DNA of 64,000 nucleotides, taken from Spongiibacter nanhainus (GTDB lineage Bacteria; Pseudomonadota; Gammaproteobacteria; Pseudomonadales; Spongiibacteraceae). This document shows positions 39,524 through 64,000 of this stretch, in pieces. The stretch spans positions 709,001 to 773,000 of the forward strand of contig NZ_CP066167.1 in the NCBI RefSeq assembly GCF_016132545.1, in the 5' to 3' direction. Each line of letters begins with the position of its first letter. Positions within the stretch are counted from its first letter, which is position 1. The notes beneath the pieces are model-generated. The model did no database searches, was not told the DNA's origin, and saw only the letters and a list, made by a program, of their open reading frames with translations. The position numbers and the translations under genes are program-made.

Positions 39524-39636
39524 GTTGCCCTCTCGTCGTCAAATACAGCTGCAAAGCGAGTTATTGTGGATCAGGGGGTGAGTGGCTAACAAGGGTTGGG
39601 GGCGTTGTGAGGCCAGTAGTGAACCATCTATTGTGT

Positions 39637-39656
39637 ATATATGGATATGCATATAT
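39637..39656. promoter_or_regulatory. ArsR operator-like palindrome
   Basis: ATATATG, six bases, then CATATAT: an A/T-rich inverted repeat of the size bound by ArsR-family repressors. It lies 35-54 bp upstream of the preferred arsR start and is preceded by TTGTGTA, which could be a -35 region. Confidence 0.65.
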
Positions 39657-39690
39657 TCTGACAATTCTATTCGATCAAAACCCCAAGTCG

Positions 39691-40062
39691 ATGATGTCTA
39701 CGCCTGCTGCGCCGAGAACCATGGCGCCCAACCAATTTTTTAAATGCCTGTCCGACGAGACGCGGATGCTGTCGATGATGCTGATCGCCCAGCAGGGAGA
39801 GCTCTGTGTCTGCGAGTTGATGGTGGCTCTGGACGACAGCCAACCCAAGATTTCCCGCCATCTGGCCCAGCTACGCAATTGCGGCCTGCTCAGCGACCGG
39901 CGGGACAAGCAGTGGGTGTACTACTCGCTGCCAGCGGATTTGCCGGATTGGGCACGGTCCCTACTGGACACCCTCTGTCAGCAGCAAGCGGTGTTATTGG
40001 AGCAGCCCTGCAAGCGGCTGGAGAATATGTCGGACCGGCCGGTGCGCTGCGCGGCGTGTTGA
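39691..40062 (+). CDS. arsR: ArsR-family arsenic-responsive repressor
   Basis: The 123-residue product is a winged-helix ArsR/SmtB repressor: FFKCLSDETRMLSMMLIAQ, the metalloid-sensing ELCVCEL motif (two Cys), then the recognition helix QPKISRHLAQLRNCGLL and a C-terminal CAAC. It should release DNA on binding arsenite. The start at 39691 is chosen because an upstream start at 39607 would put the operator inside the gene; the ATG at 39721 is also possible. First gene of arsR-arsC-acr3-arsH. Confidence 0.92.
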   Translation: MMSTPAAPRTMAPNQFFKCLSDETRMLSMMLIAQQGELCVCELMVALDDSQPKISRHLAQLRNCGLLSDRRDKQWVYYSLPADLPDWARSLLDTLCQQQAVLLEQPCKRLENMSDRPVRCAAC

Positions 40063-40093
40063 CCAGCCTTAGAGTCACCCTTAGGACGAAGTC

Positions 40094-40600
40094 ATGAAAC
40101 TGCTGTTTATCTGTACTCACAATCGCTGCCGCAGCATTCTCTGTGAAGCGATCACCCGCCATATGGCCAGCCAGCATGCCAATGGCAGTACTGTCGAGGT
40201 CGCCAGTGCCGGCAGTCAGCCGGCGGGAGAGGTTCACCCCCGCACCCTGGAGGCCCTGGCCCGCCACGGCATCTCTACCCAGGGGCTACGCAGCCAGTCC
40301 TGGGACGACTTTGCCGACTTTAATCCCGATGTGGCGATTACCGTGTGCGACAGTGCGGCCGGCGAGTCTTGTCCTCTGTGGATGGGGCGTAGCCAGAAAG
40401 TGCATTGGGGCTTGAGTGACCCCTCCAAAGTCACCGGCAGCGAGGACGAGGTGCGGGCCGCCTTTGATCGCACTATCGAGTCGATTCAGGCCAGGGTCTC
40501 TGCGCTGCTGGCGCTGGATTGGGCGGAGCTTTCCGGAGCGGCATTGGCCGACGCGCTGCGGGATATTCACCACACCATTGGGCAACAGGAGAATCAATAA
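40094..40600 (+). CDS. arsC: Arsenate reductase, low-molecular-weight PTPase type
   Basis: The 168-residue product has the protein-tyrosine-phosphatase loop CTHNRCRS (Cys7, Arg13), then [25 protein letters not shown] and the DPS motif in [10 protein letters not shown]. It reduces arsenate to arsenite for export by the next gene. The TAATG overlap with acr3 is one base. Confidence 0.93.
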
Positions 40601-41622
40601 TGGGATTTTTTGAGCGCTATCTCAGCGTCTGGGTGGGGTTGTGCATCGTTGCCGGTGTGACCCTGGGGGTATTGTTTCCGCCCTTGTTTCAAGCCTTTGC
40701 CGCCATGGAGGTGGCCCACGTTAACCTGCCAGTGGCGCTGTTTATCTGGTTAATGATCTACCCGATGATGGTGCAGGTGGATTTCTCCTCTATCAAGGAT
40801 ATTGGCAAGAAACCCAAGGGACTGGTGCTCACCCTGGTGATCAACTGGTTGATCAAGCCCTTTACCATGGCCGCCCTGGGCTGGCTGTTTTTTAAGGTAA
40901 TCTTTGCCGACCTGGTGGACCCGCAGACCGCCAGCGAATACATCGCCGGCATGATTCTGCTGGGGGTGGCGCCCTGCACGGCGATGGTATTTGTGTGGAG
41001 CCAGCTCACCAAAGGCGATGCCAACTACACCCTGGTGCAGGTGTCGGTGAACGACGTCATCATGATCTTTGCTTTTGCGCCCATCGCCGCCTTTTTATTG
41101 GGTGTCAGCGATGTGGCCGTACCCTGGGAAACCCTGTTGCTGTCGGTCGTGCTATACGTGGTGATCCCGCTGGTGGCCGGGGTGCTGACCCGCTCGGCGC
41201 TGGATCAGGCCAACGACCACCGCCGCTTAAATCAGTTTTTGGAGCGCATCAAGCCAATCTCGGTGAGCGGTCTGTTGGCAACGGTGGTGCTGTTGTTTGG
41301 TTTTCAGGCCGAGACCATTCTCTCTAAGCCGGTGGCGATTGTGCTGATCGCCATCCCGCTGTTGCTGCAAACCTACGGTATTTTTGCCCTGGCCTATGCC
41401 GGCGCCAAGGCCTTGAAGCTGCCCCACAATATCGCTGCGCCGGCCTGCATGATTGGCACCTCCAATTTCTTTGAGTTGGCAGTGGCGGTGGCTATCTCCC
41501 TGTTTGGTCTGCAGTCCGGCGCGGCACTGGCCACGGTGGTGGGGGTGCTGGTGGAGGTGCCGGTGATGTTGTCGTTGTGCGCCTTTGCCAATCGCACCCG
41601 GCACTGGTTTGAGGAGGCCTAG
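40600..41622 (+). CDS. acr3: ACR3-family arsenite exporter
   Basis: The 340-residue, ten-helix membrane protein begins [23 protein letters not shown], and has the ACR3 marks [26 protein letters not shown] (the conserved Cys of helix 4) and [19 protein letters not shown]. It extrudes arsenite using the proton gradient. I chose 40600 over the longer frame because the family begins there and the start overlaps the arsC stop. Confidence 0.95.
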
Positions 41623-41625
41623 CTC

Positions 41626-42330
41626 GTGGATGACTTGCCAAATATAGATCGGGACTGCATTCGCCCCGTCGAGATCGACAAGCTCTATCAGCCCCAGGAT
41701 CACCAGCCCCGTATTCTGCTGCTCTATGGTTCGCTGCGGAAACGCTCCTTCAGTCGTTTGGCAACGGAAGAGGCGGCGCGCTTGCTGCAGTATTTTGGCG
41801 CCGAGACCCGCACCTTTGACCCTTCAGGTTTGCCCTTGCCGGACGACAGTGACGACAGCCATCCGAAGGTACAAGAGCTTCGGGGGCTGGCTACCTGGAG
41901 TGAGGGCATGGTGTGGTGTTCCCCGGAGCGCCACGGCGCCATGACCGGCATCATGAAGGCACAAATTGACTGGATTCCGCTATCGATGGGGGCGGTGCGC
42001 CCCACCCAGGGCAAAACCCTGGCGGTGATGCAGGTGTGCGGCGGCTCCCAGAGTTTTAATGCGGTAAACCAGATGCGGGTGCTGGGGCGTTGGATGCGGA
42101 TGCTGACCATCCCTAATCAATCTTCGGTGCCCAAGGCCTGGATGGAGTTTGACGACGATGACCGCATGAAGCCCTCATCCTTCTATGACCGCATCGTCGA
42201 TGTGATGGAAGAGCTGGTGAAGTTCACCCTGCTTACCCGGGGCAGCAAAGACTACTTTGTCGACCGCTATTCCGAGCGCAAGGAAAGCGAAGCCGCATTC
42301 AGAGCCCGCATCGATCAGCGGGCTATGTAA
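41626..42330 (+). CDS. arsH: ArsH NADPH-dependent flavoprotein
   Basis: The 234-residue product is ArsH, an FMN-binding oxidoreductase that gives resistance to trivalent (often organic) arsenicals. It has [21 protein letters not shown] (FMN-phosphate site), [53 protein letters not shown] and [16 protein letters not shown]. The GTG start follows GAGGAGG inside the end of acr3. It completes the four-gene ars operon. Confidence 0.94.
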
Positions 42331-45269: not shown

Positions 45270-45662
45270 TTAGTGGCTAATCATCCACGGCCGCTGTGAT
45301 GGAAAAATCTTGCTGCCATCCGCCAGTAATACCGCTTTTTGACTCAGCGCGCTGCGATCTGCCTCCGGTGAACCGTGGGATTTACAGCCACACGAGGCGT
45401 GCTGCTGGGTCCAGATTTTGCGTTCCTGAGCTTCTGCGCGGCTGTCCACGGTGGAGTGCCTGGGCGCATGTCTGGAGGCCTCGTTGGCGGCCTCTGCTTT
45501 GCGGCGCTCCGGCGCCATGGCCAGTATCTCTGGCGGGATCATCACCACCCGCGCACTCTGTTTTCCGCACTGGGGGCATGGGCAGGGCATGTGCGCCCTG
45601 TCCATGCTGGCCAGCTCGTGGAACAGCCCGTGCTCCTGACATTTATAGTCGTAGACTGGCAT
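45270..45662 (-). CDS. fmdB: FmdB-family zinc-ribbon protein
   Basis: The 130-residue product has the FmdB N-terminus MPVYDYKCQEHGLFHELASM, then the second half of a zinc ribbon CPCPQCGKQ and a charged C-terminal tail with one CGC. In Methylophilus, FmdB is encoded next to formamidase FmdA and was proposed to regulate it. Here it is likewise 10 bp after fmdA. The role is not established. Confidence 0.9.
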   Translation of the reverse strand: MPVYDYKCQEHGLFHELASMDRAHMPCPCPQCGKQSARVVMIPPEILAMAPERRKAEAANEASRHAPRHSTVDSRAEAQERKIWTQQHASCGCKSHGSPEADRSALSQKAVLLADGSKIFPSQRPWMISH

Positions 45663-45672
45663 TGTTAACTCC

Positions 45673-46902
45673 TTACTTGTCCGGTGACAGTGGCACGTCG
45701 ACGCTGCCGTCCAGTTCGACGGTGGGGCCGTCGGCAGTGGGGTTCACGTCGAACTCAAAGATATCGGTGGGCAACCACAATGTGGCGCAGGCATTGGGTA
45801 TATCTACCACGCCGCTGATATGTCCCTGCACCGGCGCCACGCCGAGAATGGCGTAAGCCTGAGCTTTGGTATAGCCAAACTTGGTAAGATACTCAATGGC
45901 GTTGAGACAGGCCTGGCGGTAAGCCACGTGCACGTCCAGGTAGTGTTGCTTGCCGTACTCGTCGACCGAAATCCCTTCAAAAATCAGATAGTCGTCGTAC
46001 TTGGGCGTGATGGGGCTGGGCTTGAAGATGGGGTTTTTGATGCCGTACTTGGACATGCCTTCTTTTACCAGGCTGACCCGCATATGAATCCAGCCGGCCA
46101 TTTCGATGGCGCCGCAGAAGGTAATTTCGCCGTCGCCCTGGCTAAAGTGAAGGTCGCCCACACTCAGGCCAGCGTCTTTAACGTAGACCGGGAAGTATAC
46201 TTTTGAGCCCCGGGACAAGTCTTTGATATCGCAGTTACCACCGTGCTCCCGAGGCGGAACGGTACGTGCCCCTTCGGCGGCGGCCGCTTTGGCGGCGTCA
46301 CCGGTCATTTTACCCATGTGGGCGGTGTCGGCGTAGGGCAGGGTAGCCAGTTCGGGAACTCGCTCGGGGTCGGTGTCCACCAGGGCTTTTTCCCGGGTGT
46401 TCCACTCATTGAGCATCTCCTTGGAGGGCAGACAGCCGATCAGCCCCGGGTGAATCAAACCGGCAAACTCCACGCCGGGTACGTGGCGGGATTTGGTGAA
46501 CATGCCGTTGAAATCCCAGATGGATTTCTGCGCTTCGGGGAAGTGCTCGGTCAAAAAGCCGCCGCCATTTTGCTTGGAGAAGAAACCATTGAAACCCCAC
46601 TGGCTTTCATCAAAGGCGCCGATATCGAGTATCTCTACCACCAGCAAGTCGCCGGGCTCGGCGCCTTCTACCCCCACTGGGCCCGAGAGAAAGTGCACTT
46701 TACTCAGGTCTACGTCCCGGACGTCGTCAGCGGAATCGTTGTTCTCAATCTGCCCGCCGGTCCAGTCCACACACTCAATGATAAAGTCGTCGCCGGGCTT
46801 GACCATGGCAGCCATGGGGATGTCTGGGTGCCAGCGGTTGTGGATCATCTCGTTGTCGTAGGCAGACTTACTAAGATCAACTTTTATAATGGTTTCGGCC
46901 AT
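45673..46902 (-). CDS. fmdA: Formamidase
   Basis: FmdA hydrolyses formamide (and weakly acetamide) to ammonium and formate. The 409-residue product is in the acetamidase/formamidase family: IKVDLSKSAYDNEMIHNRWHPDIPM at the start, SGPVGVEGAEPGDLLVVEILDI, the motif GGNCDIKDLSRGSKVYFPVYVKDAGLSVGDLHFSQGDGEITF with acidic metal or catalytic residues, and PNACATLWLPTDIFEFDV. It follows amiB after a 307-bp gap that holds a palindrome, so fmdAB may have its own promoter. GGAGAAC precedes the ATG. Confidence 0.95.
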   Translation of the reverse strand: MAETIIKVDLSKSAYDNEMIHNRWHPDIPMAAMVKPGDDFIIECVDWTGGQIENNDSADDVRDVDLSKVHFLSGPVGVEGAEPGDLLVVEILDIGAFDESQWGFNGFFSKQNGGGFLTEHFPEAQKSIWDFNGMFTKSRHVPGVEFAGLIHPGLIGCLPSKEMLNEWNTREKALVDTDPERVPELATLPYADTAHMGKMTGDAAKAAAAEGARTVPPREHGGNCDIKDLSRGSKVYFPVYVKDAGLSVGDLHFSQGDGEITFCGAIEMAGWIHMRVSLVKEGMSKYGIKNPIFKPSPITPKYDDYLIFEGISVDEYGKQHYLDVHVAYRQACLNAIEYLTKFGYTKAQAYAILGVAPVQGHISGVVDIPNACATLWLPTDIFEFDVNPTADGPTVELDGSVDVPLSPDK

Positions 46903-47209
46903 AACAGTTCTCCTGATAGCAGAGGAAAGTCCGGCAAAGCAGCGTCGTCATGGCGGTGCTCAGCGGGGAAGAATTTGAAGCTCTACTATCTAAAAACCGC
47001 GCTTGCATCACCATTCGGCAACCGACCGGGGGCTTTACGTCAATTGACGTAGATAAGGCAGAAATGCGCCAAGCAGCCATACTGAAACGGCCTGCGAACG
47101 GGACAATGACAACAGGACGAGGGAGGACGAATCAGTGGTGATGACCTCGATAATTTCAACATAGTAGGATCGTTTTGATGGACGTTGTGTCCGGGGTTGT
47201 GAACAGGCC
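46903..47209 (-). other. Gap between amiB and fmdA
   Basis: These 307 bp have no convincing gene. They hold the 16-bp palindrome at 47036-47051 and the fmdA ribosome site. The size of the gap inside an otherwise tight operon suggests an internal promoter. Confidence 0.6.
47036..47051. promoter_or_regulatory. 16-bp perfect palindrome upstream of fmdA
   Basis: TACGTCAATTGACGTA is fully self-complementary and lies about 135-150 bp before the fmdA start. TTGACG within it could also serve as a -35 element. It is a candidate operator for fmdAB. Confidence 0.55.
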
Positions 47210-48274
47210 CTAGACGGATGGGGCGGGCTGCACTGTCAGGGTATCGCCGGTCAGAGAGACGGAAAACTCAGTCGCACTGGGTGCGGCTAACATGGCTTTG
47301 GCTAGGCTGGGCTCCAGGGTTTTCCGGAGGCGGCGGGCCAGATCCCGGGCGCCAAACCTGGGGTCGTATCGCTGCAGTATAAAACGCCGGCTGGCGTCGT
47401 CGAGTTCCAAGTCGACACCTCGCTTCTGCAGTCGATGGCGCAATTTTTCCAGCTCGATGTCCAGCAGCGCTGGCAGCTCGGCCTCCCCCAGCCGTCGATA
47501 GGTAAGGATACGGTCGATGCGGTTGATAAACTCGGGATCAAAGCGCTGGTGAAGTGCCTTGTCCAGAGCCTTGTCCTGGGGGCGATGAGTGCGGCCTGCG
47601 CTGGTCAGTGCCCTCAATGCGCGCTTCCAAGGCCTGTCAGTATAAGTGGCTTCCTGTATTTGCTTGGCACCGACGTTACTGGTCAAAAACAGCAGGCTGT
47701 TGCGGAAGTCAATGTGACGATTGCCGGAGGCCAGGTGCAGCCGGCCCCGTTCCAGCACATTCATCAGGGCGCGAATCACTTCGTCGCTACCTTTCTCCAG
47801 CTCGTCGAAAAGCACAATGCCGGGTTTGCTGAAGCTGCCCTTAATCAGGGACTCATCTAGCAGGGTCTGGCTTTCTTTGCTGCCCACATAGCCAGGCGGC
47901 GCGCCGGTGAGAGAGGCGGCATAGTGGGATTGTGAGAGGGTGTTCATGTCGATACGGCAGACGGCGTCTTTGCTGCCGTGGATCGCTTCGGCAAGCAAGC
48001 GCACCGTTTCGGTTTTGCCGGTGCCGGTAGGGCCCAGCAACAGGGATACGGCCAGCGGTCGGTCGCTGTCGACAATGTCGGCTTTGACGATATGCAGCAT
48101 ATCATCAAGGGCATCCAGCACGGTTTTCTGGCCCACAATCCGCGACCGCAGCTTTGCCATTACAGCATCTGGCTCGAAGACAAAGCGGGAGACCCGTATA
48201 TCCTTGACTCGGTAGTCGGGGCTGCTGGCTATTTGCCGCTCTTGCTCGGCAAGGCGGTCGTTAATAAAGGGCAC
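47210..48274 (-). CDS. amiB: AmiB-like Clp/AAA+ ATPase
   Basis: The 354-residue product is a single AAA+ module of the ClpA/ClpB D2 type: Walker A GPTGTGKTETV, Walker B IVLFDELEKG, sensor-1 LLFLTSNVG, the box FDPEFINRIDRI and a Clp C-terminal small domain with YDPRFGARDLARRL. The central GYVGSKE loop matches the Clp pore loop. It lacks an N-domain and no ClpP partner is nearby. In Pseudomonas aeruginosa a similar ATPase, AmiB, lies directly after amiE in the amidase operon, as here, so I assign it by similarity and position. Its function in amide use is not known. Confidence 0.82.
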   Translation of the reverse strand: MPFINDRLAEQERQIASSPDYRVKDIRVSRFVFEPDAVMAKLRSRIVGQKTVLDALDDMLHIVKADIVDSDRPLAVSLLLGPTGTGKTETVRLLAEAIHGSKDAVCRIDMNTLSQSHYAASLTGAPPGYVGSKESQTLLDESLIKGSFSKPGIVLFDELEKGSDEVIRALMNVLERGRLHLASGNRHIDFRNSLLFLTSNVGAKQIQEATYTDRPWKRALRALTSAGRTHRPQDKALDKALHQRFDPEFINRIDRILTYRRLGEAELPALLDIELEKLRHRLQKRGVDLELDDASRRFILQRYDPRFGARDLARRLRKTLEPSLAKAMLAAPSATEFSVSLTGDTLTVQPAPSV

Positions 48275-48300: not shown

Positions 48301-49344
48301 TTAGCCCGCCTCCTGCTCTTTACCCTCCACTGGGAGCTCGCCCACCGGGCATTGGGCTACACCGATGGTGGAGCGGGTGATGGACTCTACCTGCTCCTGA
48401 GTGGCTTTGGCATCCATCACCCAGCTGCGATAAAAATCGAAGGGGCAATCGGCAATGCCTTTGTCGCCATCGCCGGAGTTGTAGACTCCCGAGTAACCGC
48501 GGTGCAGCAGTTTAAATAGATGGTTCTGCGATTGGTCATTGGCGCGGGCGTCACGAATCTGGCTGACAGAAAGCTGTGCATACTGTACGCCCATATCCTC
48601 CTCGCCACACTCGCCCAATGTGCGACCGTCAAAGCCGATTACGGCGGAGTGGCCAAAGTAGGAATACACGCCGTCAAAGCCAGTGGCGTTGGCGACCGCC
48701 ACGTAGCTGTTGTTGGCCCAGGCCATGGTTTTGGCCATCATGATCTGCTGTTCCTTGGCGGGGTACATATAGCCCTGGCAGCGGATAATCAGCTCGGCGC
48801 CCTTCATGGCGCAGTCTCGCCAGATCTCAGGGTAGTTGCCGTCGTCACAGATGATCAGACTGATTTTAAGGCCCTTGGGCCCTTCGGAGACGTAGGTGGT
48901 GTCGCCGGGATACCAGCCTTCGATCGGACACCAGGGAATACATTTGCGGTACTTCTGAACGATCTCGCCGTGATTGTTGATTAGCACCAGAGTGTTGTAG
49001 GGCGCCTTGTTGGGATGGTCTTCATGGCGCTCACCGGTGAGGGAAAACACGCCCCAGGTATTGGCTTCCCGGCAGGCGGCGGCAAAGATGTCAGTCTCCT
49101 CGCCGGGAATGGTGGCGGCGGTGGCCATCATTTCATCCGGGTCGTACATGATGCCCATGGTGCTGTATTCGGGGAATATCACCAGATCCATGCCGGGCAG
49201 ACCGACCTTCATACCCTTGATCATTTCGGCGATGTCCCGGGCATTGCTCAAGACTTCGGCCTTGGTGTGCAGGCGGGGCATATTGTAATTGACCACCGCC
49301 ACGCCGACGGTATCGTCACTGCTGGAAATATCACCGTGTCGCAT
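48301..49344 (-). CDS. amiE: Aliphatic amidase
   Basis: AmiE hydrolyses short aliphatic amides such as acetamide and propionamide to ammonium and acid. The 347-residue product has the nitrilase-superfamily triad at the same numbering as the Pseudomonas enzyme: Glu59 (FPEY), Lys134 and Cys166 (ICDDGNYPE). The start [20 protein letters not shown] is the family N-terminus, and the length is normal. It lies between the ABC importer genes and amiB. Confidence 0.97.
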
Positions 49345-49387: not shown

Positions 49388-50077
49388 TTACACCGAGAGA
49401 TAGGCTTTGATCTTGTCGGTATCGACCTCGTCCCGGGTGTTTTCGTGAATAAAGTTGCCCTTGTCGATGACGATAATCCGGTCCGCCACCGTCATGGTGA
49501 AGCTCAGCACCTGCTCCGAGACCACAATGGTGATGTCGCGGAGCTTTTTGATTTCGTTAAGAACATTGGCGATATCTTTAATGATGGAGGGCTGGATGCC
49601 CTCGGTGGGCTCATCCAACAGCAAGACCTTGGGATTGGTGACCAGCGCCCGCGCTATGGCGAGCTGTTGCTGTTGCCCCCCTGACAAATTACCGCCTTTG
49701 CGTTTACGCATCTCCGCCAGTACCGGGAACAGCGCGTAAATATCGTCGGGAATACGTTTTAGCTTGGAGACGTTCATGCCGGTCTCAATATTTTCCTGCA
49801 CGGTGAGGTTGGGGAAAATCATCCGCCCTTGTGGCACGTAGGCAAGGCCGCTCTGCACCCGTTGGAAGCTCTCCTTCTTGGTGACATCGTCGCCATCGAC
49901 GCTAATGCTGCCACCAGAATTGGGCATAACTCCGATCAGGGACTTAAACAGCGTGGTTTTACCCATCCCGTTGCGGCCCATAATGGCCAGAGTTTGGTTT
50001 TTGGGCACTTCAAAGTTAAGGCCATGGATGACTTCGCTTTGGCCGTAACTGACTTTTAAATTTTCGACATTTAACAT
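49388..50077 (-). CDS. urtE: Urea/amide ABC importer ATPase, UrtE type
   Basis: The 229-residue product is the LivF/UrtE-type ATPase: Walker A GRNGMGKTT, signature LSGGQQQQLAIARAL, Walker B LLLDEPTEGIQPSI. The EGIQPSI variant is typical of UrtE. It energises import with UrtD through the permeases UrtB and UrtC. It lies 43 bp before amiE. Confidence 0.92.
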   Translation of the reverse strand: MLNVENLKVSYGQSEVIHGLNFEVPKNQTLAIMGRNGMGKTTLFKSLIGVMPNSGGSISVDGDDVTKKESFQRVQSGLAYVPQGRMIFPNLTVQENIETGMNVSKLKRIPDDIYALFPVLAEMRKRKGGNLSGGQQQQLAIARALVTNPKVLLLDEPTEGIQPSIIKDIANVLNEIKKLRDITIVVSEQVLSFTMTVADRIIVIDKGNFIHENTRDEVDTDKIKAYLSV

Positions 50078-50144: not shown

Positions 50145-50897
50145 CTAGTGGCCCAGGTAAACTTCTACAACGTTGGGATCCTTCTGAACGTCTTCCATGG
50201 GGCCGGCGGCAAGGATTTTTCCCTGGTGGAGTACAGTTACTTTGTGGGCGATGCGGGCGACAAACTCCATATCGTGTTCGATAACCAGCACCGAGCGACC
50301 ACTACTGATTTTGTTGAGCAGCTCGGCGGTTTGCTCCCGCTCCTTCACACTCATACCGGCGACGGGTTCGTCCAACATCAGTAGTTGTGGGTCCTGGATC
50401 AGCAGCATGCCGATCTCCAGCCACTGTTTTTGACCGTGACTGAGCAGGGCGGCCTCGGTATCGATAAAGTCCTCCAGCATGATTTCGGCGGCGATTTCCC
50501 GGACCTTGCTATCCACCTCGTCATCCCGTTGGAAAACCAGCGAGCCAAACACCCCGCGGCCCCTGGGGAAGGACACCTCTAGATTCTCGTAGACCGAGAG
50601 GTTTTCGTAGATCGATGGGGTTTGGAATTTGCGGCCAACGCCGGCCCGGACAATTTCGTGCTCGGCTAGTTTGGTCAGTTCCTTGTTCATAAACTTGATG
50701 CTGCCGGAAGTGGCTTTGGTCTTGCCGCAGATCAAATCCAGTACGGTGGTCTTGCCGGCGCCATTGGGGCCGATGACGACATGCAGCTCGTTCTTGTCCA
50801 GGTAAAAATTCAAACCGTCCACGGCCTTGAAGCCGTCGAATGACACCGTCAGATCTTCGATCGACAGGGTAAAATCGGTGTTGGTGCTCATATTCAT
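50145..50897 (-). CDS. urtD: Urea/amide ABC importer ATPase, UrtD type
   Basis: The 250-residue product is the LivG/UrtD-type ATPase: GPNGAGKTT Walker A, LSHGQKQWLEIGMLL (a modified signature characteristic of UrtD), Walker B LLMLDEPVAGMS. Partner of UrtE in the importer. Confidence 0.93.
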   Translation of the reverse strand: MNMSTNTDFTLSIEDLTVSFDGFKAVDGLNFYLDKNELHVVIGPNGAGKTTVLDLICGKTKATSGSIKFMNKELTKLAEHEIVRAGVGRKFQTPSIYENLSVYENLEVSFPRGRGVFGSLVFQRDDEVDSKVREIAAEIMLEDFIDTEAALLSHGQKQWLEIGMLLIQDPQLLMLDEPVAGMSVKEREQTAELLNKISSGRSVLVIEHDMEFVARIAHKVTVLHQGKILAAGPMEDVQKDPNVVEVYLGH

Positions 50898-50949: not shown

Positions 50950-52101
50950 TCAGCTGGTGCCCTCGAGTTTTTGATCGCTCAAGGTATTCGGAGACTTGTC
51001 GAAGAAGCGAGTGATAAAGCTGAAGCGCTTTTTGACCAGGTGTCCGTAGTCTTCCCACAGCCCGGCCAGGCCATTGGGGAAGAACATCACCACGGCGATA
51101 AACAGACCGCCCATCAGGAACAGCCACAGCTCGGGGAAGGTTTCCGAGAAGGCGGTCTTACCAAAGTTGATCAGTAGACATCCGTAGACCGCGCCGATCA
51201 GCGACATCCGACCGCCCACTGCGGCAAAGATAACCATCTCAATGGAAGGCACGATGCCGACGAAGGAAGGCGACATAAAGCCGACAACCAAGGTAAACAT
51301 GGCGCCGCCGACCGCAGAGATAGCGGCGGCGACACAGAAAATAAAGATTTTGAAGTTGGCGACGTCATAGCCGGAGAAGCGCACTCGGTCTTCTTTATCC
51401 CGCATTGCCAGCAACAGGCGGCCAAACTTACTGGTGAGGATATAGCGTCCCCCCATGACGGCGGCGATAAGCAGGAAGCAGGTGATGTAGTAGAACACCA
51501 GCTTGGCGGTGTCCGAAGTGATATCCATACCTTTCAGAGTGCGCAGGTCAGTGATGCCGTTAATGCCGCCGGTATAACCCTGCTGGCCAACGATGAGCAC
51601 CGTGAGGATCAGGGAGATAACCTGGGTGATAATGGCAAAATACACCCCGCCCACCCGGCGTTTAAACATCGCTACGCCAATGATGTAGGCAAATAGGGTA
51701 GGTACGACCAGGATGGCGATCAGGGTAAAGGTCAGGCTGTTGAAGGGCTCCCAAAACCACGGCAGCGCCGTTAGCTGGTTCCAGTCCATAAAGTCGGGAA
51801 TACCGGGGGTGGACTGAATGGCCGTGGCCTCTGGTGTAGACGCCTCCAGCTTAAGGAACATGGCCATCGCATAGCCGCCAAGGCCAAAGAAGATACCCTG
51901 CCCTAAACTCAGTGTGCCGCCGTAACCCCACAATAGGACTAGGCTGATCGCTGGAAATGCATAAGTTAAGTATTTGGCAACCAGATTGAGCCGAAAGGCA
52001 TCAAGGAACAGCGGAAACACCACCAGTATTATCGCTGAAAGTATTAGCAGGGCGGTGGTGCCGCTTTTGCCGCCCAGTACTTTTTCGTAAAAGAAGTTCA
52101 T
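50950..52101 (-). CDS. urtC: Urea/amide ABC importer permease, UrtC type
   Basis: The 384-residue product is a LivM/UrtC-type permease with about 10 helices: LLWGYGGTLSLGQGIFFGLGGYAMAMFLKLE near the start, RRVGGVYFAIITQVISLIL in the middle and the EAA-like loop region RFSGYDVANFKIF. I prefer the ATG ending at 52101 (MNFFYEKVLG), preceded by GAGAGA, over the longer frame. Confidence 0.92.
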   Translation of the reverse strand: MNFFYEKVLGGKSGTTALLILSAIILVVFPLFLDAFRLNLVAKYLTYAFPAISLVLLWGYGGTLSLGQGIFFGLGGYAMAMFLKLEASTPEATAIQSTPGIPDFMDWNQLTALPWFWEPFNSLTFTLIAILVVPTLFAYIIGVAMFKRRVGGVYFAIITQVISLILTVLIVGQQGYTGGINGITDLRTLKGMDITSDTAKLVFYYITCFLLIAAVMGGRYILTSKFGRLLLAMRDKEDRVRFSGYDVANFKIFIFCVAAAISAVGGAMFTLVVGFMSPSFVGIVPSIEMVIFAAVGGRMSLIGAVYGCLLINFGKTAFSETFPELWLFLMGGLFIAVVMFFPNGLAGLWEDYGHLVKKRFSFITRFFDKSPNTLSDQKLEGTS

Positions 52102-52164
52102 ATCTCTCTCCCAATAACGGTTCGCGGCCAATGCCCGGGATGGGCCCGCGAGAAAGGCCCGCGA

Positions 52165-53088
52165 TTAGCGGCGGACCTTGCTGGCAAATAGACCCTCGGG
52201 CTTAAACATCAAGATGATGACCAGAGTCAGTAGGGTGAATACCTTGGCCATGGAGCCGCTGATAAAGAACTCCAGAATGGATTGTGCTTGAGCGATGGAG
52301 AAGGCCGATGCAATTGTGCCCAGTAGGCTGGCTGCGCCGCCAAAGACCACCACCATAAACGTGTCGACAATGTACAGGGTGCCCGTGGTGGGGCCGGTTG
52401 AAGCAATGGTGGTAAAGGCCGCACCGGCTACACCGGCGATGCCACAGCCCAACGCAAAGGTCATGCGGTCAACGTTTTTGGTGTTGATACCCACTGCACC
52501 ACTCATCAGACGGTTTTGGGTAGTGGCGCGTACTTTTAAGCCCCAGGATGATTTAAACATCAGATAGAACACACCCAAGGTGATGAACAGGGTCAGGCCC
52601 AGTACGAACATGCCGTTGATGGGAATGTCGATCATGTCGGTGGGTTGCAGCGAGCCCATCAGCCAGTCGGGCAGAGTGGGGCTAACTTCCCGGGCACCGA
52701 AGATGGAGCGGTAACCCTGCTGCATAATCAGGCTCAGACCCCAGGTCGCCAGCAGCGTATCCAGCGGTCTTTTGTAGAGAAATCGTATTAACGCAAATTC
52801 GGCGATATAGCCCAGTATCGCGGCGACAAAGAACGCGGCGACAATGGCAAAGACGAAGTAGTACGGCATAAAACTGGGAAAGTAATTCTCGGTAAGGCTT
52901 GAAAGCAGGTAGGTGGTGTAGGCCCCTGCCGCCATAAATTCACCGTGGGCCATATTGATCACGCCCATTTGGCCAAAGATGATGGCCAGTCCTAACGCCA
53001 TAAGTAAGAGGACGCTGAACAAACTGATGCCGGCAAACCCCTGCATGGCGAAAATCGCACCTAACTCGCTGTATGTATATCCAAACAT
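52165..53088 (-). CDS. urtB: Urea/amide ABC importer permease, UrtB type
   Basis: The 307-residue product is a LivH/UrtB-type permease with about 8 helices: GLAIIFGQMGVINMAHGEFMAAGAYTTYLL (the motif of the family), RPLDTLLATWGLSLIMQQGYR, and GCGIAGVAGAAF. UrtB and UrtC form the membrane pore. Confidence 0.93.
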   Translation of the reverse strand: MFGYTYSELGAIFAMQGFAGISLFSVLLLMALGLAIIFGQMGVINMAHGEFMAAGAYTTYLLSSLTENYFPSFMPYYFVFAIVAAFFVAAILGYIAEFALIRFLYKRPLDTLLATWGLSLIMQQGYRSIFGAREVSPTLPDWLMGSLQPTDMIDIPINGMFVLGLTLFITLGVFYLMFKSSWGLKVRATTQNRLMSGAVGINTKNVDRMTFALGCGIAGVAGAAFTTIASTGPTTGTLYIVDTFMVVVFGGAASLLGTIASAFSIAQAQSILEFFISGSMAKVFTLLTLVIILMFKPEGLFASKVRR

Positions 53089-53235: not shown

Positions 53236-54477
53236 TTACTGGTAACCTTCGGGGAAAGGATCGGGCTCGATCAGGTCAGAGGTGTAAACCACTTCAGCCT
53301 GGCCGTCTTTCTTCCATTTACCTACGCGTGCTTTGCTCCACAAGTGGTGGTTGGGGTGCAGTTTTACGTAGCCTTCAGGCGCGGTATCCAGCTCGATTTC
53401 ACCAGACTCAGAGACTTCTACCACTTTGTCGACGTCGAAGGAGCCGGCTTTTTCCACTGCAGCCTTCCACAGCCAGGGGCCGAGATAGGCAGCTTGGGTC
53501 ACGTCACCGATCACACTGTCGTCGCCCCACATCTCTTTAAAGGCCTTAACAAACTTCTTGTTGTTCTCGTTGTCGAGACTTTGGAAGTACTTCATGATGG
53601 AGTAGAACCCTTCCAGGTTTTCACCACCGATACCCAGTACTTCGTCTTCGGTCACTGAGATGGTCAACAGGGTTTGCTTGTCGCTGGTGATGCCGGCGGC
53701 TTTGAGCTGTTTAAACCAGGCCACGTTAGAGCCACCCACCACCGCGGCGTAGATCACGTCGGGCTTTTTCAGGCGGATTTTGTTGATGACCGAGCCAAAT
53801 TGGGTATCGCCCAGAGGCTTGTACTCTTCACCCACGACTTTGCCACCCAGCACGTTTTCAATGTGCTTGCGGGCGATTTTCATGGAAGTTCGCGGCCAGA
53901 TGTAGTCAGAACCAATCAGGTAGAAGGTTTTTGCCTTCTTCTCTTTGGCTACCCAGTTGAGACCGTCGAGAATCTGCTGGGTCGCTTCCTGGCCGGTGTA
54001 GATTACGTTGTGGGATTGTTCCAGTCCTTCGTAGAAGGTGGGGTAGTAAAGCAGACCGTTTTCTTTCTCAAAAACCGGCAGTGCCGCTTTCCGGGATGCC
54101 GAAGTCCAGCAGCCGAAGACCGCCGCGACCTTGTCTTTTACCAGCAGCTTGCGGCTTTTCTCGGCAAAGGTAGGCCAGTCACTGGCACCGTCTTCTTGGA
54201 TAATCTTAATTTGGCGGCCTAGCACGCCTCCCATTTCGTTGATTTGCTTGATGGCCAGTTTTTCTGCTTCCTGGGCACCGGTTTCACTGATTGCCATGGT
54301 GCCAGTCAGGGAGTGTAGAATCCCTACAGTGACCTCATCATCGGTCACTGCAAGGCCGGTAGTATTCACTTCGGCGAAGCAGAGCTGGGATGCCAGGATG
54401 GCCCCTGCCGGTATCATCGCCAGGCACTGAAGTACCTTGCGGCGCCCCCAGCGACGAAGCTCTCTTTGATCACGCAT
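53236..54477 (-). CDS. urtA: Urea/short-chain amide-binding protein, UrtA/FmdD type
   Basis: The 413-residue product is the periplasmic binding protein of the importer. It has a Tat-like signal (GRRKVLQ at Arg12-Arg13) and then VTVGILHSLTGTMAISETGAQEAEKLAIKQINEMGG, AVFGCWTSASRKAALPVFE and LLYYPTFYEGLEQSHNVIYTG, motifs shared by UrtA, FmdD and the amide sensor AmiC. Because the operon encodes amidases and no urease, short-chain amides are the more likely ligand. It is the first gene of the operon. Confidence 0.92.
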   Translation of the reverse strand: MRDQRELRRWGRRKVLQCLAMIPAGAILASQLCFAEVNTTGLAVTDDEVTVGILHSLTGTMAISETGAQEAEKLAIKQINEMGGVLGRQIKIIQEDGASDWPTFAEKSRKLLVKDKVAAVFGCWTSASRKAALPVFEKENGLLYYPTFYEGLEQSHNVIYTGQEATQQILDGLNWVAKEKKAKTFYLIGSDYIWPRTSMKIARKHIENVLGGKVVGEEYKPLGDTQFGSVINKIRLKKPDVIYAAVVGGSNVAWFKQLKAAGITSDKQTLLTISVTEDEVLGIGGENLEGFYSIMKYFQSLDNENNKKFVKAFKEMWGDDSVIGDVTQAAYLGPWLWKAAVEKAGSFDVDKVVEVSESGEIELDTAPEGYVKLHPNHHLWSKARVGKWKKDGQAEVVYTSDLIEPDPFPEGYQ

Positions 54478-54632
54478 TAGGTTGTCTCCTACGTTTGACG
54501 GGTTCGGTATCAGTCTCGGTATTTGCGATCAATAAGAAAATTCGCCGGATGCTCCCCCTCATTACGTTAGATGACGTATATCCCTCCAAGATGCCAATCG
54601 GTTAGTTTTCAGCCCAGTCAATGACCCACTTG

Positions 54633-54940: not shown

Positions 54941-57900
54941 GTGCAGCAACCACAGGCGCCATCAGACCCGGGTCCCGCCCAGCAACATATTTTCAGGGTG
55001 CGGCGTAGCTATAACCGCTGGGTAGCCAACCAGACCCTCGAGGACTATGCGCTGCGTTTCACCGCCAAGCGGGCTCGGCGCTGGTCTACCGCCAGGGTGT
55101 CTAATACGGCACTGGGGGCGATTTCCTTCCTAGCTCTGGAGGCTATTGGCGGCGCCATTACCCTGAGTTACGGCTTCAGCAATGCGGTGGCGGCAGTCAT
55201 GGTGGTGGGGGCCATCATCTTCTTGACCGGTCTGCCGATTTGCTATCATGCTGCAAAACAGGGCGTTGATATCGATTTGCTCACTCGTGGTGCAGGCTTC
55301 GGCTATATCGGCTCAACCTTAACCTCTCTGATCTACGCCTCGTTCACTTTTATCTTCTTTGCTCTGGAGGCGGCGATTATGGCGCTGGCTCTGGAGTTGA
55401 CCCTCAATATTCCCCTTTCCATTGGCTATATCATCAGCTCAGTGGTGGTCATTCCCCTTGTCACCCACGGCATCACCTTAATCAGCCGCTTCCAGGTCTG
55501 GACGCAGCCATTGTGGATTGTGCTACAGCTGGTTCCTCTGGCGGTGATTGCCTTTCAGGCCGATGGGGCGGTGGCCCAGTGGCGCGGCTACGTTCCCGAG
55601 GATCAGGGGCCGGGGCTCAATGTATTGGCCTTCGGCGCGGCGTCGGCGGTACTGTTCTCGCTCATTGCCCAGATTGGCGAACAGGTCGATTTCCTGCGTT
55701 TTCTGCCCCATCAGAAAAAACCGGATCGGCGTTGGTGGCTGGCAATGATTGCCGCTGGCCCCGGCTGGATTATCAGCGGGGTCGTCAAGGTATTGATCGG
55801 ATCGTTTCTGGCGGTTCTGGCGTTGAACCACGGGATTCCCGTTAGTGAGGCTTCTGACCCAAACCGTATGTACCTCACCGCATTTGGTTACTTGAATGTC
55901 GGCCCAGAGCTAACCCTGTTGCTATGCGGGGTATTTGTGGTGTTGTCGCAGCTGAAGATCAATGTGACTAACGCCTACGCGGGTTCTATCGCCTGGTCCA
56001 ACTTCTTCTCTAGGCTTACCCACAATCACCCCGGTCGGGTGGTATGGCTGGTATTTAATGTCGCCATTGCGCTGACTCTGATGGAATTGGGTATCTACCG
56101 GGTGCTGGAGGACATTCTCAGCGTTTACTCCATTATTGCTCTGGCCTGGGTGGGTTCGCTGGTGGCGGATCTGGTCATTAACCGCCCACTGGGGCTACGC
56201 CCCAAAACCATGGAGTTTAAGCGCGCCCATCTCTATGACATTAACCCGGTGGGGGTGGGTTCGATGATTATTGCCTCGGTGTTGGGCTTTATGGCTCACG
56301 CCGGACAGTTTGGTGACATTGCCCACGCGCTGTCCTCCTTTATTGCGTTGGGAGCGACCTTTATCTGCGCGCCAGTGATTGCCTGGGTGACTAAGGGCAA
56401 GTACTACATCGCCAGGGAGCCGGTCTCCTTTGGCGAGAAGGAAGATGCCCGCTGCTGCATTTGTTATCACTACTTTGAGCCCGAGGATATGACATACTGC
56501 CCCGCCTATTCGGGGGCGATATGTTCCTTGTGCTGCTCATTGGACAGTCGTTGTCACGACATGTGCAAGGAAAACTCCCGTTTGCAGGAGCAATTGATTA
56601 ACGCTCTGGGGGTGCTGGTGCCACGCCATTGGGTAAAAGTGCTCAATACCCGTACCGGCCATTTCCTGGGCTTGTTTTTACTGACCAGTTTTATGATCGC
56701 CGGGGTGCTGGGGGTAGTCTATATCCAGATTACCACCGATGAGGGCATGGACCCGGCAGCCGCCGCCAGTGCGCTAAGCAATGTCTTCTTTATTTTGCTG
56801 ATTGTCTGTGGGGTGTTGGCGTGGATGTTTGCCTTGGTCCACGACAGCCGCCGAGTGGCCCAGGAGGAGACCGAGCGGCAGACCGAATTGCTTACTGCAG
56901 AAATCAAGGCCCACATCCAGACTGACCTTAAGCTCCAGCAGGCCAAGGAGGCGGCTGAAGCGGCTAACAATGCCAAGAGTCGCTATTTGACCGGTATCAG
57001 CCATGAGTTGCGATCTCCCCTGAATGCCATATTAGGTTACGCTCAGTTGTTGGAAAAGGACCCGGCGATCCCGGAAAACCGCCGCCAGGCCCTGAATGTG
57101 ATTCGCCGCAGTAGCGACCACCTGGCAGACTTGATCGAAGGTTTGCTGGATATCAGTCGAATTGAGGCTGGCCGCCTGGATTTGAGTCGCAACGATGTCA
57201 ACCTGAGTGCCTTGTTGGATCAGATCGTCGGCATGTTTCAAATCCAGGCCAACAGCAAGGGAATCGGCTTTAGTTTTGACCGTTTGACGCCTCTGCCCGA
57301 GACCATTCGAACAGACGAGAAACGTTTGCGGCAGATCTTGATAAACCTACTGTCCAATGCCATTAAGTACACCCACCAGGGCGCGGTGACCTTTACCGTG
57401 AGCTACCGCAATCAGGTGGCGGAATTTCACATTCGCGATAGCGGAGAGGGCATCGCCTCCGAGGATATGGACCGGATTTTTCACCCCTTTGAGCGGGTCC
57501 GTAAAGCGGGTTCACCCCATATAGCCGGTACCGGCCTGGGGCTTACCATTACCCGGCTGCTGTGCGACATGATGGGTGGCGATCTCAGTCTGTCCAGCGA
57601 AGAGGGGCGCGGTACCCATGCCAAGGTATCGCTGATGTTGCCCTCCAGCGATAAATTGGTCAGTCGCTCGGTTCAGGAGCAGCAGATTTGGGGCTACGAG
57701 GGTGAAGAGAAAACCGTGTTTGTGGTGGACGACGAGCCTGCGCACCGAAGCCTGATCTGCGACTTGCTTGGCCCGCTGGGTTTTAACATGGTGCAGGCGA
57801 CAGATGGGCCAACATGTCTGGATATGTTGGATATCTGCGATGAGCGGCCGGGTATATACCTGCTCGATGTGTCCATGCCGGGGATGTCTGGCTGGCAGTT

Positions 57901-58327
57901 GGCCAAGCGCTTGAGGGGGATGATGCCCGATGCCTGCATCATCATGATCTCTGCCAATGCTATAGAGTCGCCACCTGACGATATTGGCGCAGCGCCTCAC
58001 AGTGCCTACTTACTTAAGCCGGTGAGAATCAATCACTTGTTGAAGAGTCTTCACGACCATGCGGGGATAGTCTGGCGGAGCCGACCTGCGCCGCAGGAGC
58101 CTTCGCAGCCCACTCAACTGAGTACCTCGATTCAAATTCCCAGCGAGGAGCGGGCTGAGTTGCTGCGGCTCGCTAAAATTGGATATGCCAAAGGAATGCA
58201 GCAGTGCTTGGACAATATAGAAGCGGAAGCGACGCTTCCCGCCGAGCAGTTCCGCATACTGCGGGAGCTCGCCAATCGTTTTCAATTCAGCGCCCTGACC
58301 CGGCTGCTGGAGGGGGAAAGCGCGTGA
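54941..58327 (+). CDS. NCS1-permease-like hybrid histidine kinase
   Basis: The 1128-residue product joins several modules. Residues about 40-490 are a 12-helix domain resembling nucleobase/cation symporters (NCS1, CodB/Mhp1-like; EDYALRFTAKRARRWS, ALEAIGGAITLSYG). Residues about 502-545 are a Cys-rich segment with at least ten Cys (CCICYHYF, CPAYSGAICSLCC, CHDMCKE), zinc-finger-like. Two more helices follow (about 570-595 and 608-632), then a coiled coil, HisKA with His688 in SHELRSPLNAILGY, HATPase with IKYTHQG and GTGLGLTITRLL, and a receiver domain with Asp976. The start is GTG at 54941. It is divergent from the amide importer operon and overlaps a response-regulator gene. I infer a transporter-like sensor of amides or a related nitrogen compound. 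Confidence 0.85.
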   Translation: MQQPQAPSDPGPAQQHIFRVRRSYNRWVANQTLEDYALRFTAKRARRWSTARVSNTALGAISFLALEAIGGAITLSYGFSNAVAAVMVVGAIIFLTGLPICYHAAKQGVDIDLLTRGAGFGYIGSTLTSLIYASFTFIFFALEAAIMALALELTLNIPLSIGYIISSVVVIPLVTHGITLISRFQVWTQPLWIVLQLVPLAVIAFQADGAVAQWRGYVPEDQGPGLNVLAFGAASAVLFSLIAQIGEQVDFLRFLPHQKKPDRRWWLAMIAAGPGWIISGVVKVLIGSFLAVLALNHGIPVSEASDPNRMYLTAFGYLNVGPELTLLLCGVFVVLSQLKINVTNAYAGSIAWSNFFSRLTHNHPGRVVWLVFNVAIALTLMELGIYRVLEDILSVYSIIALAWVGSLVADLVINRPLGLRPKTMEFKRAHLYDINPVGVGSMIIASVLGFMAHAGQFGDIAHALSSFIALGATFICAPVIAWVTKGKYYIAREPVSFGEKEDARCCICYHYFEPEDMTYCPAYSGAICSLCCSLDSRCHDMCKENSRLQEQLINALGVLVPRHWVKVLNTRTGHFLGLFLLTSFMIAGVLGVVYIQITTDEGMDPAAAASALSNVFFILLIVCGVLAWMFALVHDSRRVAQEETERQTELLTAEIKAHIQTDLKLQQAKEAAEAANNAKSRYLTGISHELRSPLNAILGYAQLLEKDPAIPENRRQALNVIRRSSDHLADLIEGLLDISRIEAGRLDLSRNDVNLSALLDQIVGMFQIQANSKGIGFSFDRLTPLPETIRTDEKRLRQILINLLSNAIKYTHQGAVTFTVSYRNQVAEFHIRDSGEGIASEDMDRIFHPFERVRKAGSPHIAGTGLGLTITRLLCDMMGGDLSLSSEEGRGTHAKVSLMLPSSDKLVSRSVQEQQIWGYEGEEKTVFVVDDEPAHRSLICDLLGPLGFNMVQATDGPTCLDMLDICDERPGIYLLDVSMPGMSGWQLAKRLRGMMPDACIIMISANAIESPPDDIGAAPHSAYLLKPVRINHLLKSLHDHAGIVWRSRPAPQEPSQPTQLSTSIQIPSEERAELLRLAKIGYAKGMQQCLDNIEAEATLPAEQFRILRELANRFQFSALTRLLEGESA

Positions 58328-62825: not shown

Positions 62826-62939
62826 GGGTTATTCCTCGGGTGTGGCAGACTCGGTGTATTCGGAGGCATGACATTGTGCTGAGCAGCGGCGACAATGGCA
62901 ATTCTGTTTTTCCGCAATTCCAGTGATCTGACCCAGCCT

Positions 62940-64000
62940 ATGACCCGCGCACAGACGTATTCGAGTCCGCCCACGATTTTTCTTGGGGTGGATACCGGCG
63001 GTACTTTCACCGACTTTGTCGCTGTGGAGGGCGACAAGGTGCGCTTACACAAGTGTCTGTCTACTCCCGCTCAGCCCGAACAGGCAATACTGCAGGGGAT
63101 CGCGGCCCTGGGCTTGGATCAGGTGGCGCAGGCAGGGCGCCTGGTGGTGGTGCATGGTTCCACAGTGGCGACCAATGCCGCCCTTGAGGGCAAAGGCGTG
63201 CGTACCGTGTTTATCAGCAACCGGGGTTTTGCCGACATGCTGACGCTGGGGCGGCAAACCCGGGACCAGCTATACCAACTGCGTCCCGCCCTTAAACATC
63301 CGCCTGTACCCCGGGATCTGTGTTTACAAACCGGGGGGCGTCTGGCGGCGGATGGCAGTGAGGTTGAGCCACTGACCCAGGCGGATTTGCAGACTCTGCG
63401 GCGAGAGGTCGAGGCGTTGCAGCCGGAGGCGGTGGCGATCAACCTGTTGTTTTCCTTTATTGACGACCGCTTCGAACGAGCCATTGCTGAGGCCATGCCG
63501 GAGTCGGTGTTTGTGTCCCGCTCCTCGGCGGTGCTTCCTGAATATAAAGAGTATGAGCGGGGGATGGCCACGTGGCTCAATGCCTGGCTGGGCCCCTTGG
63601 TGGCCAGTTATTTACAGCGTTTGCAGCATGCTTTGGCCGATGTGCCGCTGGCGGTGATGCAGTCCTCGGGGGGCACCATTGATGCTGCCGGCGCCGGCCA
63701 GCGGGCGGTGAACTTGTTGTTGTCCGGTCCTGCTGGCGGTCTGGCAGCGGCGCGACAGTTGGGGCAGTGGGTGGAGCGACCCCGCTTGATGACCTTCGAC
63801 ATGGGGGGGACCAGCTCTGATGTGGCCCTGATTGACGGCGATATCGCACTGACCTCAGAGGGCAAAATCGGCCCCTATCCGGTGGCGGTGCCGATGGTGG
63901 ATATGCACACCATCGGTGCTGGCGGCGGTTCTCTGGCCTACGTGGATAGTGGTGGCGTGTTGCAGGTGGGGCCCGAATCTGCCGGCGCCGACCCCGGTCC
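62940..64000 (+). CDS. Hydantoinase/oxoprolinase-family protein (3' end outside window)
   Basis: About 353 residues are visible before the window ends, in a frame without a stop. FLGVDTGGTFTDFVAVEGDKVRLHKCLSTP is the HyuA/oxoprolinase ATP-binding start, followed by VVVHGSTVATNAALEGKG and the actin-like MTFDMGGTSSDVALIDG. The family hydrolyses cyclic amides such as hydantoins or 5-oxoproline with ATP, usually with a HyuB subunit. Which substrate applies cannot be told from this half. The ATG at 62940 is the first in-frame start. Confidence 0.9.
   Translation, partial: MTRAQTYSSPPTIFLGVDTGGTFTDFVAVEGDKVRLHKCLSTPAQPEQAILQGIAALGLDQVAQAGRLVVVHGSTVATNAALEGKGVRTVFISNRGFADMLTLGRQTRDQLYQLRPALKHPPVPRDLCLQTGGRLAADGSEVEPLTQADLQTLRREVEALQPEAVAINLLFSFIDDRFERAIAEAMPESVFVSRSSAVLPEYKEYERGMATWLNAWLGPLVASYLQRLQHALADVPLAVMQSSGGTIDAAGAGQRAVNLLLSGPAGGLAAARQLGQWVERPRLMTFDMGGTSSDVALIDGDIALTSEGKIGPYPVAVPMVDMHTIGAGGGSLAYVDSGGVLQVGPESAGADPG

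Follow-up and report, generated by a model that had tools for sequence, protein, structure and literature searches.

We describe here a permease-fused sensor kinase and its gene neighbourhood within a 64,000-nucleotide stretch of the Spongiibacter nanhainus genome (contig NZ_CP066167.1, positions 709,001 to 773,000; hereafter the window, to which all unprefixed coordinates refer). The kinase open reading frame (ORF; 54941-58327, plus strand) is open from a GTG at 54941 through the stop at 58327 and encodes an intact protein of 1128 residues, with the opposite strand broken by many stops. The next gene, for a LuxR-type response regulator, probably starts with the GTG at 58324 and shares 4 bases with the end of the kinase gene (its listed ORF opens at 58204), and this pair is divergent from a minus-strand gene row, urtABCDE-amiE-fmdA (Table 1). 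We propose, with a probability of about 0.72, that the protein is a sensor kinase that derives its sensor from a transporter and detects short-chain amides, and that some of its relatives do the same for urea.

Pfam domains found in the kinase were HisKA at residues 678-744 (9e-19), HATPase_c at 791-899 (4e-26) and Response_reg at 926-1037 (3e-16), and the protein is therefore a hybrid histidine kinase in which all three modules are present with their catalytic residues. Conservation was evaluated across 122 kinases, comprising the window copy and those of 121 of 127 related loci (labels beginning with L denote loci, G genomes, with G000 being the organism's own, and C contigs); six loci were dropped because the kinase is missing from L071-L074 and split in two frames in L107 and L135. 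All 122 share H688, N806, D833, G863, D976, S1004 and K1026 in the kinase part and, in the permease part, all nine residues checked (E67, E143, K339, I340, N341, N344, E247, D250 and R253), and because both sets are kept throughout, the permease-kinase fusion is not a chance arrangement. Between the two parts lie elements absent from the first-pass annotation of this DNA, namely a module of eight cysteines (residues 505-542), each kept in 122/122 kinases, and a pair of long helices (residues 571-651) before HisKA. The cysteine module, which may bind metal, has no credible Pfam match, and across residues 490-660 nothing in Pfam passed the cut-off, with PF20136 (DUF6526) falling below it at 579-667.

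Table 1. Coordinates of the kinase, its domains, the neighbouring genes and the predicted regulator sites in the window.
Feature	Position	Strand	Basis
Hybrid histidine kinase with permease-like sensor	54941..58327	+	1128 residues, GTG start; full-length relatives
NCS1-like permease domain, ~residues 20-490	54998..56410	+	AlphaFold2; Foldseek CodB/Mhp1; weak NCBIfam CodB; hhalign to PF02133-positive permeases
Eight-cysteine module, residues 505-542	56453..56566	+	C505, C508, C520, C528, C531, C532, C538, C542
Two long helices, residues 571-651, leading into HisKA	56651..56893	+	AlphaFold2 secondary structure
HisKA, phospho-acceptor H688	56972..57172	+	Pfam; H in 122/122
HATPase_c, N806, D833, G863	57311..57637	+	Pfam; conserved in 122/122
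Receiver domain, D976	57716..58051	+	Pfam; D in 122/122
Response regulator, receiver and LuxR-type helix-turn-helix	58324..59232	+	Pfam Response_reg, GerE
UrtA-type substrate-binding protein of urea/amide ABC importer	53236..54477	-	TIGR03407, 521.7 bits (cut-off 492.75)
UrtB permease subunit	52165..53088	-	TIGR03409, 397.8 bits (cut-off 250.3)
UrtC permease subunit	50950..52131	-	TIGR03408, 431.2 bits (cut-off 296.2)
UrtD-type ATPase	50145..50897	-	Sequence, position and synteny
UrtE ATPase	49388..50077	-	TIGR03410, 339.4 bits (cut-off 285.8)
Aliphatic amidase AmiE	48301..49344	-	NF009802, 708.3 bits (cut-off 427)
AAA/Clp-type ATPase	47210..48274	-	AAA_2, ClpB_D2-small
Formamidase FmdA	45673..46902	-	NF045496, 787.8 bits (cut-off 500)
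FmdB zinc-ribbon protein	45270..45662	-	NF053663, TIGR02605
Predicted site TACGTTAGATGACGTA	54563..54578	.	86-101 bases before urtA start codon of listed ORF; 13/14 match
Second predicted site TACGTCAATTGACGTA, perfect	47036..47051	.	134-149 bases before fmdA start codon of listed ORF

Direct family assignment of the sensor domain fails, in that residues 1-520 gave nothing credible in Pfam even at E<10 (PF02133 included), PF02133 was matched by 0/41 members of the sensor alignment A1 at E<0.1, and PDB searches by sequence or profile with the sensor returned nothing credible. An AlphaFold2 model of residues 1-652 built with 41 sequences (predicted local distance difference test score, 79; predicted template-modelling score, 0.79) nevertheless contains 12 permease helices by count, with the first membrane helix broken at residue 63, and comparing this model with the PDB by Foldseek revealed 606 matches at E<=10, with CodB (7qoa) and Mhp1 (2jln, 2x79, 4d1a) occupying ranks 1-5 (E 1.2e-8 to 8.9e-7; target template-modelling score 0.65-0.77) and other LeuT-type folds (Nramp, SSS, LeuT) below them. 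At the sequence level, the NCBIfam CodB model aligned to residues 34-452 at 1.7e-6 (27 bits against a curated cut-off of 326) and no other NCBIfam model matched residues 1-520 at E<0.01; a stand-alone permease with 28% identity to sensor residues 31-495 itself matches PF02133 at 2.6e-9; and hhalign of the sensor profile with six PF02133-positive permeases gave a probability of 93.7 (E 1.8e-7, 363 columns). Because fold ranking, CodB model, intermediate permease and profile comparison all agree while Pfam fails, the sensor is NCS1-like yet too remote for Pfam to reach. The first-pass annotation had read the first ~490 residues as a 12-helix NCS1-like permease joined to HisKA, HATPase and receiver modules, and both the fold and the Pfam domains bear this out, with the structural comparison that it had suggested, run here on residues 1-652, placing Mhp1 and CodB at the top and giving a LeuT/NCS1-like fold. 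An origin from the SSS (SLC5) family, whose domain is also a LeuT-type fold, was considered and ruled out by an hhalign probability of 12.6 between the sensor profile and 24 SSF proteins (28.3 between the SSF set and the six PF02133-positive permeases) and by SSS structures ranking below CodB and Mhp1 in Foldseek; PF00474 (SLC5/SSF) is likewise unmatched anywhere in the kinase protein. The host's own genome gave no PF02133 match at E<=0.001.

Related kinases are widespread, and their gene neighbours point to amides and urea. Within the GTDB order, 51 of 194 genomes had a match (47 of these at E below 1e-100), and within the class, where the query was a kinase-free permease rather than the kinase, 18 of 369 did, one of them weakly. 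Across a bacterial and archaeal genome collection, a relative was encoded in at least 593 of 598 candidate stretches, from which 80 loci with gamma-, alpha- and beta-proteobacterial titles were kept, the closest among the matches listed being from Zhongshania (81%). Amide genes accompany the kinase in 86 of the 121 related loci, a divergent urt operon in 12, urease in 10 and both of the latter in 3, such that 111 loci have amide, urt or urease genes (25 of them urt and/or urease without amide genes), with the proviso that these counts are not independent because some loci are near-copies (e.g., L031/L079 and L039/L083). The 10 loci left with neither are so classed at the thresholds used, as L050 and L076 have ureEFG and L068 has urtDE; four others (L118, L122, L126 and L149) are short contigs that end at or close to the kinase, and L053, L059 and L061 have no amide or urea genes in the stretch, with urtA lying ~20 kb off in the genome of L053 (G048) and on another contig in that of L061 (G193). 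The regulator is present in 112/121 loci. When mapped on a FastTree tree, the gene context switches between amide and urea at least 3 times, which argues for a small amide-like molecule as the shared factor. In a plasmid collection, the sensor is matched by 532 records, of which 342 are from Klebsiella, and in the one Klebsiella record examined (L198, Klebsiella oxytoca pKOX26_2), the kinase lies with urtABCDE and a gene for a formamidase among insertion sequence elements a few kb from the heat-survival genes clpK/hsp20. Plasmid records label the kinase variously as 'ATP-binding protein', 'response regulator', 'hybrid sensor histidine kinase/response regulator' or ArcB.

What the domain might bind was evaluated against Mhp1, in which we take W117 to be the ring-stacking residue, W117, W220 and Q121 to form the substrate sandwich with its glutamine, and S312/T313 to be the Na2-site pair. 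W117 aligns to F139 (phenylalanine in 30 and leucine in 3 of 33 kinases), Q121 to E143, N314 to N341 and N318 to N344, and the W220 column is not alignable. S312/T313 align to K339/I340, found as K and I in 33/33 kinases, in 11/11 kinase-free relatives and throughout the 122 kinases; E143 is also identical in 11/11 kinase-free relatives. The Mhp1 sodium-site residues, whose conservation the first-pass annotation had proposed to check, are thus replaced throughout, and the lysine now found there suggests that the domain may be sodium independent. As K339 and E143 are common to kinase-free relatives, they are no mark of receptor function.

These replacements bear on the ligands that had earlier been named for the domain (hydantoin, allantoin and cytosine, the classical NCS1 substrates, as a nitrogen signal). 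Although the closest structures in the PDB are those of cytosine and hydantoin permeases and CodB is the only NCBIfam match, F and E stand in for W117 and Q121, K/I for the sodium-site pair, and the gene partners in 111 of the 121 related loci are of the amide, urt and urease kinds. A distant stand-alone permease (L072:7547-8902), which carries R at the former sodium site, does share one gene row with a HyuA-like gene, yet it lies outside the kinase clade. We therefore hold classical NCS1 ligands to be very improbable, whereas the broader suggestion of the same annotation, that the neighbours indicate amide or nitrogen signals, fits the formamidase, aliphatic amidase, urt and urease partners seen here.

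A palindrome, TACGTCAnnTGACGTA, may connect the regulator to these partner genes. Between urtA and kinase, it occurs at >=11/14 in 56 of 82 regions versus 0.45 expected from dinucleotide shuffles and at >=10/14 in 78 of 82 versus 5.15 expected (window plus 81 loci with divergent urtA; four regions longer than 700 bases were cut to 700), an enrichment that is partly circular because the consensus was read from those same regions, leaving the sites at fmdA and in distant genomes as the independent evidence. The organism's own 4.08-Mb genome, with one mismatch allowed, holds 3 sites (54563 before urtA, 47036 before fmdA and C1:611921) versus 0 for the reversed control. Across 128 loci (2.49 Mb), 95 sites reach >=12/14, with 69 before kinase, urtA or permease, 21 before fmdA and 5 elsewhere, so that 90 of the 95 fall within 450 bases before one of these genes. 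In G193, which has the kinase on contig C3, the strict pattern matches once only, on C1, ~160 bases before urtABCDE-ureDABC, and G065 and G150 each have one strict-pattern match, before urtA. Synteny and palindrome together suggest that the regulator may control the urt, ami and fmd genes.

Relatives of the sensor also exist without a kinase, and they fall into two types. The first is represented by an Acinetobacter lwoffii plasmid gene (L199:8950-10557; from the one record examined among nine of Acinetobacter plasmids) that encodes 535 residues, is 43.7% identical to the sensor and stands directly before ureEFGJDABC; genes 64-71% identical to it adjoin urease genes in seven genomes of one family (L222, L245-L249 and L253, the last with a broken frame), making urease genes adjoining in 8/8 examined. 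The second type (L223, L250, L251 and L252) is divergent from the kinase-regulator pair and is followed by fmdA-fmdB-amiE in 4/4, and all four loci have a 13/14 palindrome between permease and kinase and no urtABCDE in the stretch, such that the sensor's own relative occupies the place held elsewhere by the ABC importer. Of the C-terminal cysteines, the second type keeps all eight and the first only CxxC...CSLC. The best tree places the 11 free forms in one clade (100/98) nested inside the kinases, which themselves formed one clade in 0% of 200 bootstraps, and four of the 11 keep the full eight-cysteine tail as if the kinase had been shed; the reverse order of kinases and free forms was not rejected by an approximately unbiased (AU) test (p 0.41), in which the outgroups were very long. 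We tentatively suggest that these proteins could constitute an NCS1 transceptor family, in which the domain would act as a receptor for urea or amides if joined to a kinase and would itself import them if it stands alone, and in which one form could have given rise to the other.

The same relatives raise the question of whether the kinase is itself a true transceptor, with a domain that transports amide or urea and a kinase that reports the flux, a reading that overlaps with ours and that we consider possible without favouring it. Its appeal lies in the kinase-free relatives occupying positions that would suit an importer (within urease operons, or instead of urtABCDE) and in CbrA of Pseudomonas, which is reported to be both transporter and kinase, but transmembrane helix 1 differs, with E67 in 122/122 kinases, whereas the two kinase-free relatives displayed have F or Q at this position and D at the one before.

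In the sensor kinase that we propose, the NCS1-like domain would bind a small amide (in this organism) or urea (elsewhere) in a pocket that contains E143 and has K339 at the former sodium site, and the bound conformation would be relayed to HisKA by way of the cysteine module and the two long helices. Phosphate would then pass on to the LuxR-type regulator, which may bind the palindrome before urtA and fmdA and turn on uptake (UrtABCDE) and hydrolysis (AmiE and FmdA). The permease could instead be a silent membrane anchor, with the input coming from UrtA-E, from the intracellular nitrogen state or from a redox or zinc state read by the cysteine module. We think this unlikely: the invariance of all eight cysteines is in its favour, as is CbrA (see below), but the invariance of E67, E143, K339, I340, N341, N344 and the helix 6 residues E247, D250 and R253 goes beyond an anchor's needs, and four loci have the kinase without adjoining urtABCDE.

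Several observations weigh against an amide/urea sensor kinase, among them the failed Pfam assignment, the sharing of K339 and E143 with kinase-free relatives, the near-copies among loci and the partly circular palindrome count already described. CbrA, the nearest functional analogue, is reported to transport L-histidine without a significant effect of this substrate on kinase activity in vitro (PMC7096432). Three kinase loci near the kinase-free clade (L224-L226, outside the 121) have no amide or urea neighbour. Genome G044 (L059) has kinase and regulator and no urtA, urease alpha or FmdA match; its 3 strict palindrome matches (reversed control, 1) include none before urt, urease or FmdA genes, with the one nearest the kinase being a 12/14 palindrome before a gene for a 535-residue transglutaminase-like protein (L059, L261 and L262). 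At the strict pattern, G048 is without the palindrome and has one half-site before its urtA. In the organism's own genome, the third site (G000:C1:611921-611936, L197:4422-4437) lies between ADH-like and MOSC genes, and the 3.4-kb stretch examined at its urease (C1:3820335) holds no palindrome.

Elsewhere in the window, the ATPase between amiE and fmdA is presumably AmiB-like, a name taken from the P. aeruginosa ami operon, and we take positions 39607-42330 to be an arsenic-type cluster (ArsR, ArsC-type phosphatase, ACR3 and ArsH-like) and 62895-63998, at the window edge, to be the start of a HyuA-type hydantoinase/oxoprolinase-like gene. A sigma-54 promoter in the urtA-kinase region was considered and rejected, as none lies there and the window's 4 pattern matches (<=1 mismatch) compare with 4.02 expected. 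The organism's genome also has a urease alpha gene (G000:C1:3820335-3820685) far from the kinase locus.

Transporter-kinase fusions are already an accepted kind, represented by CbrA, CrbS/MxtR and the Amt-kinase of Kuenenia (the short name of which is, we believe, Ks-Amt5), and an NCS1-type sensor would be the new element. CbrA likewise has a full N-terminal permease domain on a histidine kinase with a linker module (PMC7096432, PMC13022988 and PMC7918813), and substrate binding and transport have been shown for it with histidine as ligand; it is reported to differ in having an SLC5 rather than an NCS1 domain and no receiver, and it has STAC and PAS where the present protein has eight cysteines and two long helices. 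Similarly, CrbS/MxtR, PrlS and RpuS carry a transporter-type sensor on a kinase (PMC7918813, PMC9100948 and PMC5715377), the first two being hybrid as here and PrlS having a LuxR-type regulator, but their domains are of the SLC5 type and their contexts are acetate, ionic strength or pyruvate. The Kuenenia ammonium sensor kinase also joins a nitrogen-compound transporter domain to a histidine kinase (PMC5764959), with the differences of an Amt/Rh fold and ammonium as its compound. CodB and Mhp1 lack a kinase, and the Mhp1 sodium-site pair and the substrate-site residues W117 and Q121 are replaced here. The term 'NCS1' is absent from the text of PMC13022988 and PMC7918813, and passages of PMC11109136 deal with S-components and STAC.

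The amide-type urt operon also has precedents, with urtABCDE beside fmdA in Bradyrhizobium blr0968-blr0973 (PMC3098086), P. veronii Yu15 (PMC13209695) and E. guguanensis G3 (PMC13296017) and amiE also present in the first two, for which amide transport has been inferred by the respective authors. For E. guguanensis G3, a histidine kinase and LuxR regulator are drawn among urea genes, with the regulator placed beside the urtABCDE operon. The passages considered from these three papers say nothing of a sensor of the permease type or of kinase-free forms of it, nor of a binding site, and a search of the open-access PMC literature, judged by titles, abstracts and selected passages, turned up no account of an NCS1-type histidine kinase or a urea/amide sensor like this one.

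For transporter-like sensors, it is an open question whether occupancy or flux provides the signal, and CbrA has given an ambiguous answer. This family offers natural pairs, a kinase and a kinase-free sensor relative that are divergent in one locus, with the predicted binding site as a read-out. If our reading is true, a widespread protein would become a candidate sensor kinase for urea and amides and would also point to a candidate urea permease of the NCS1 type.

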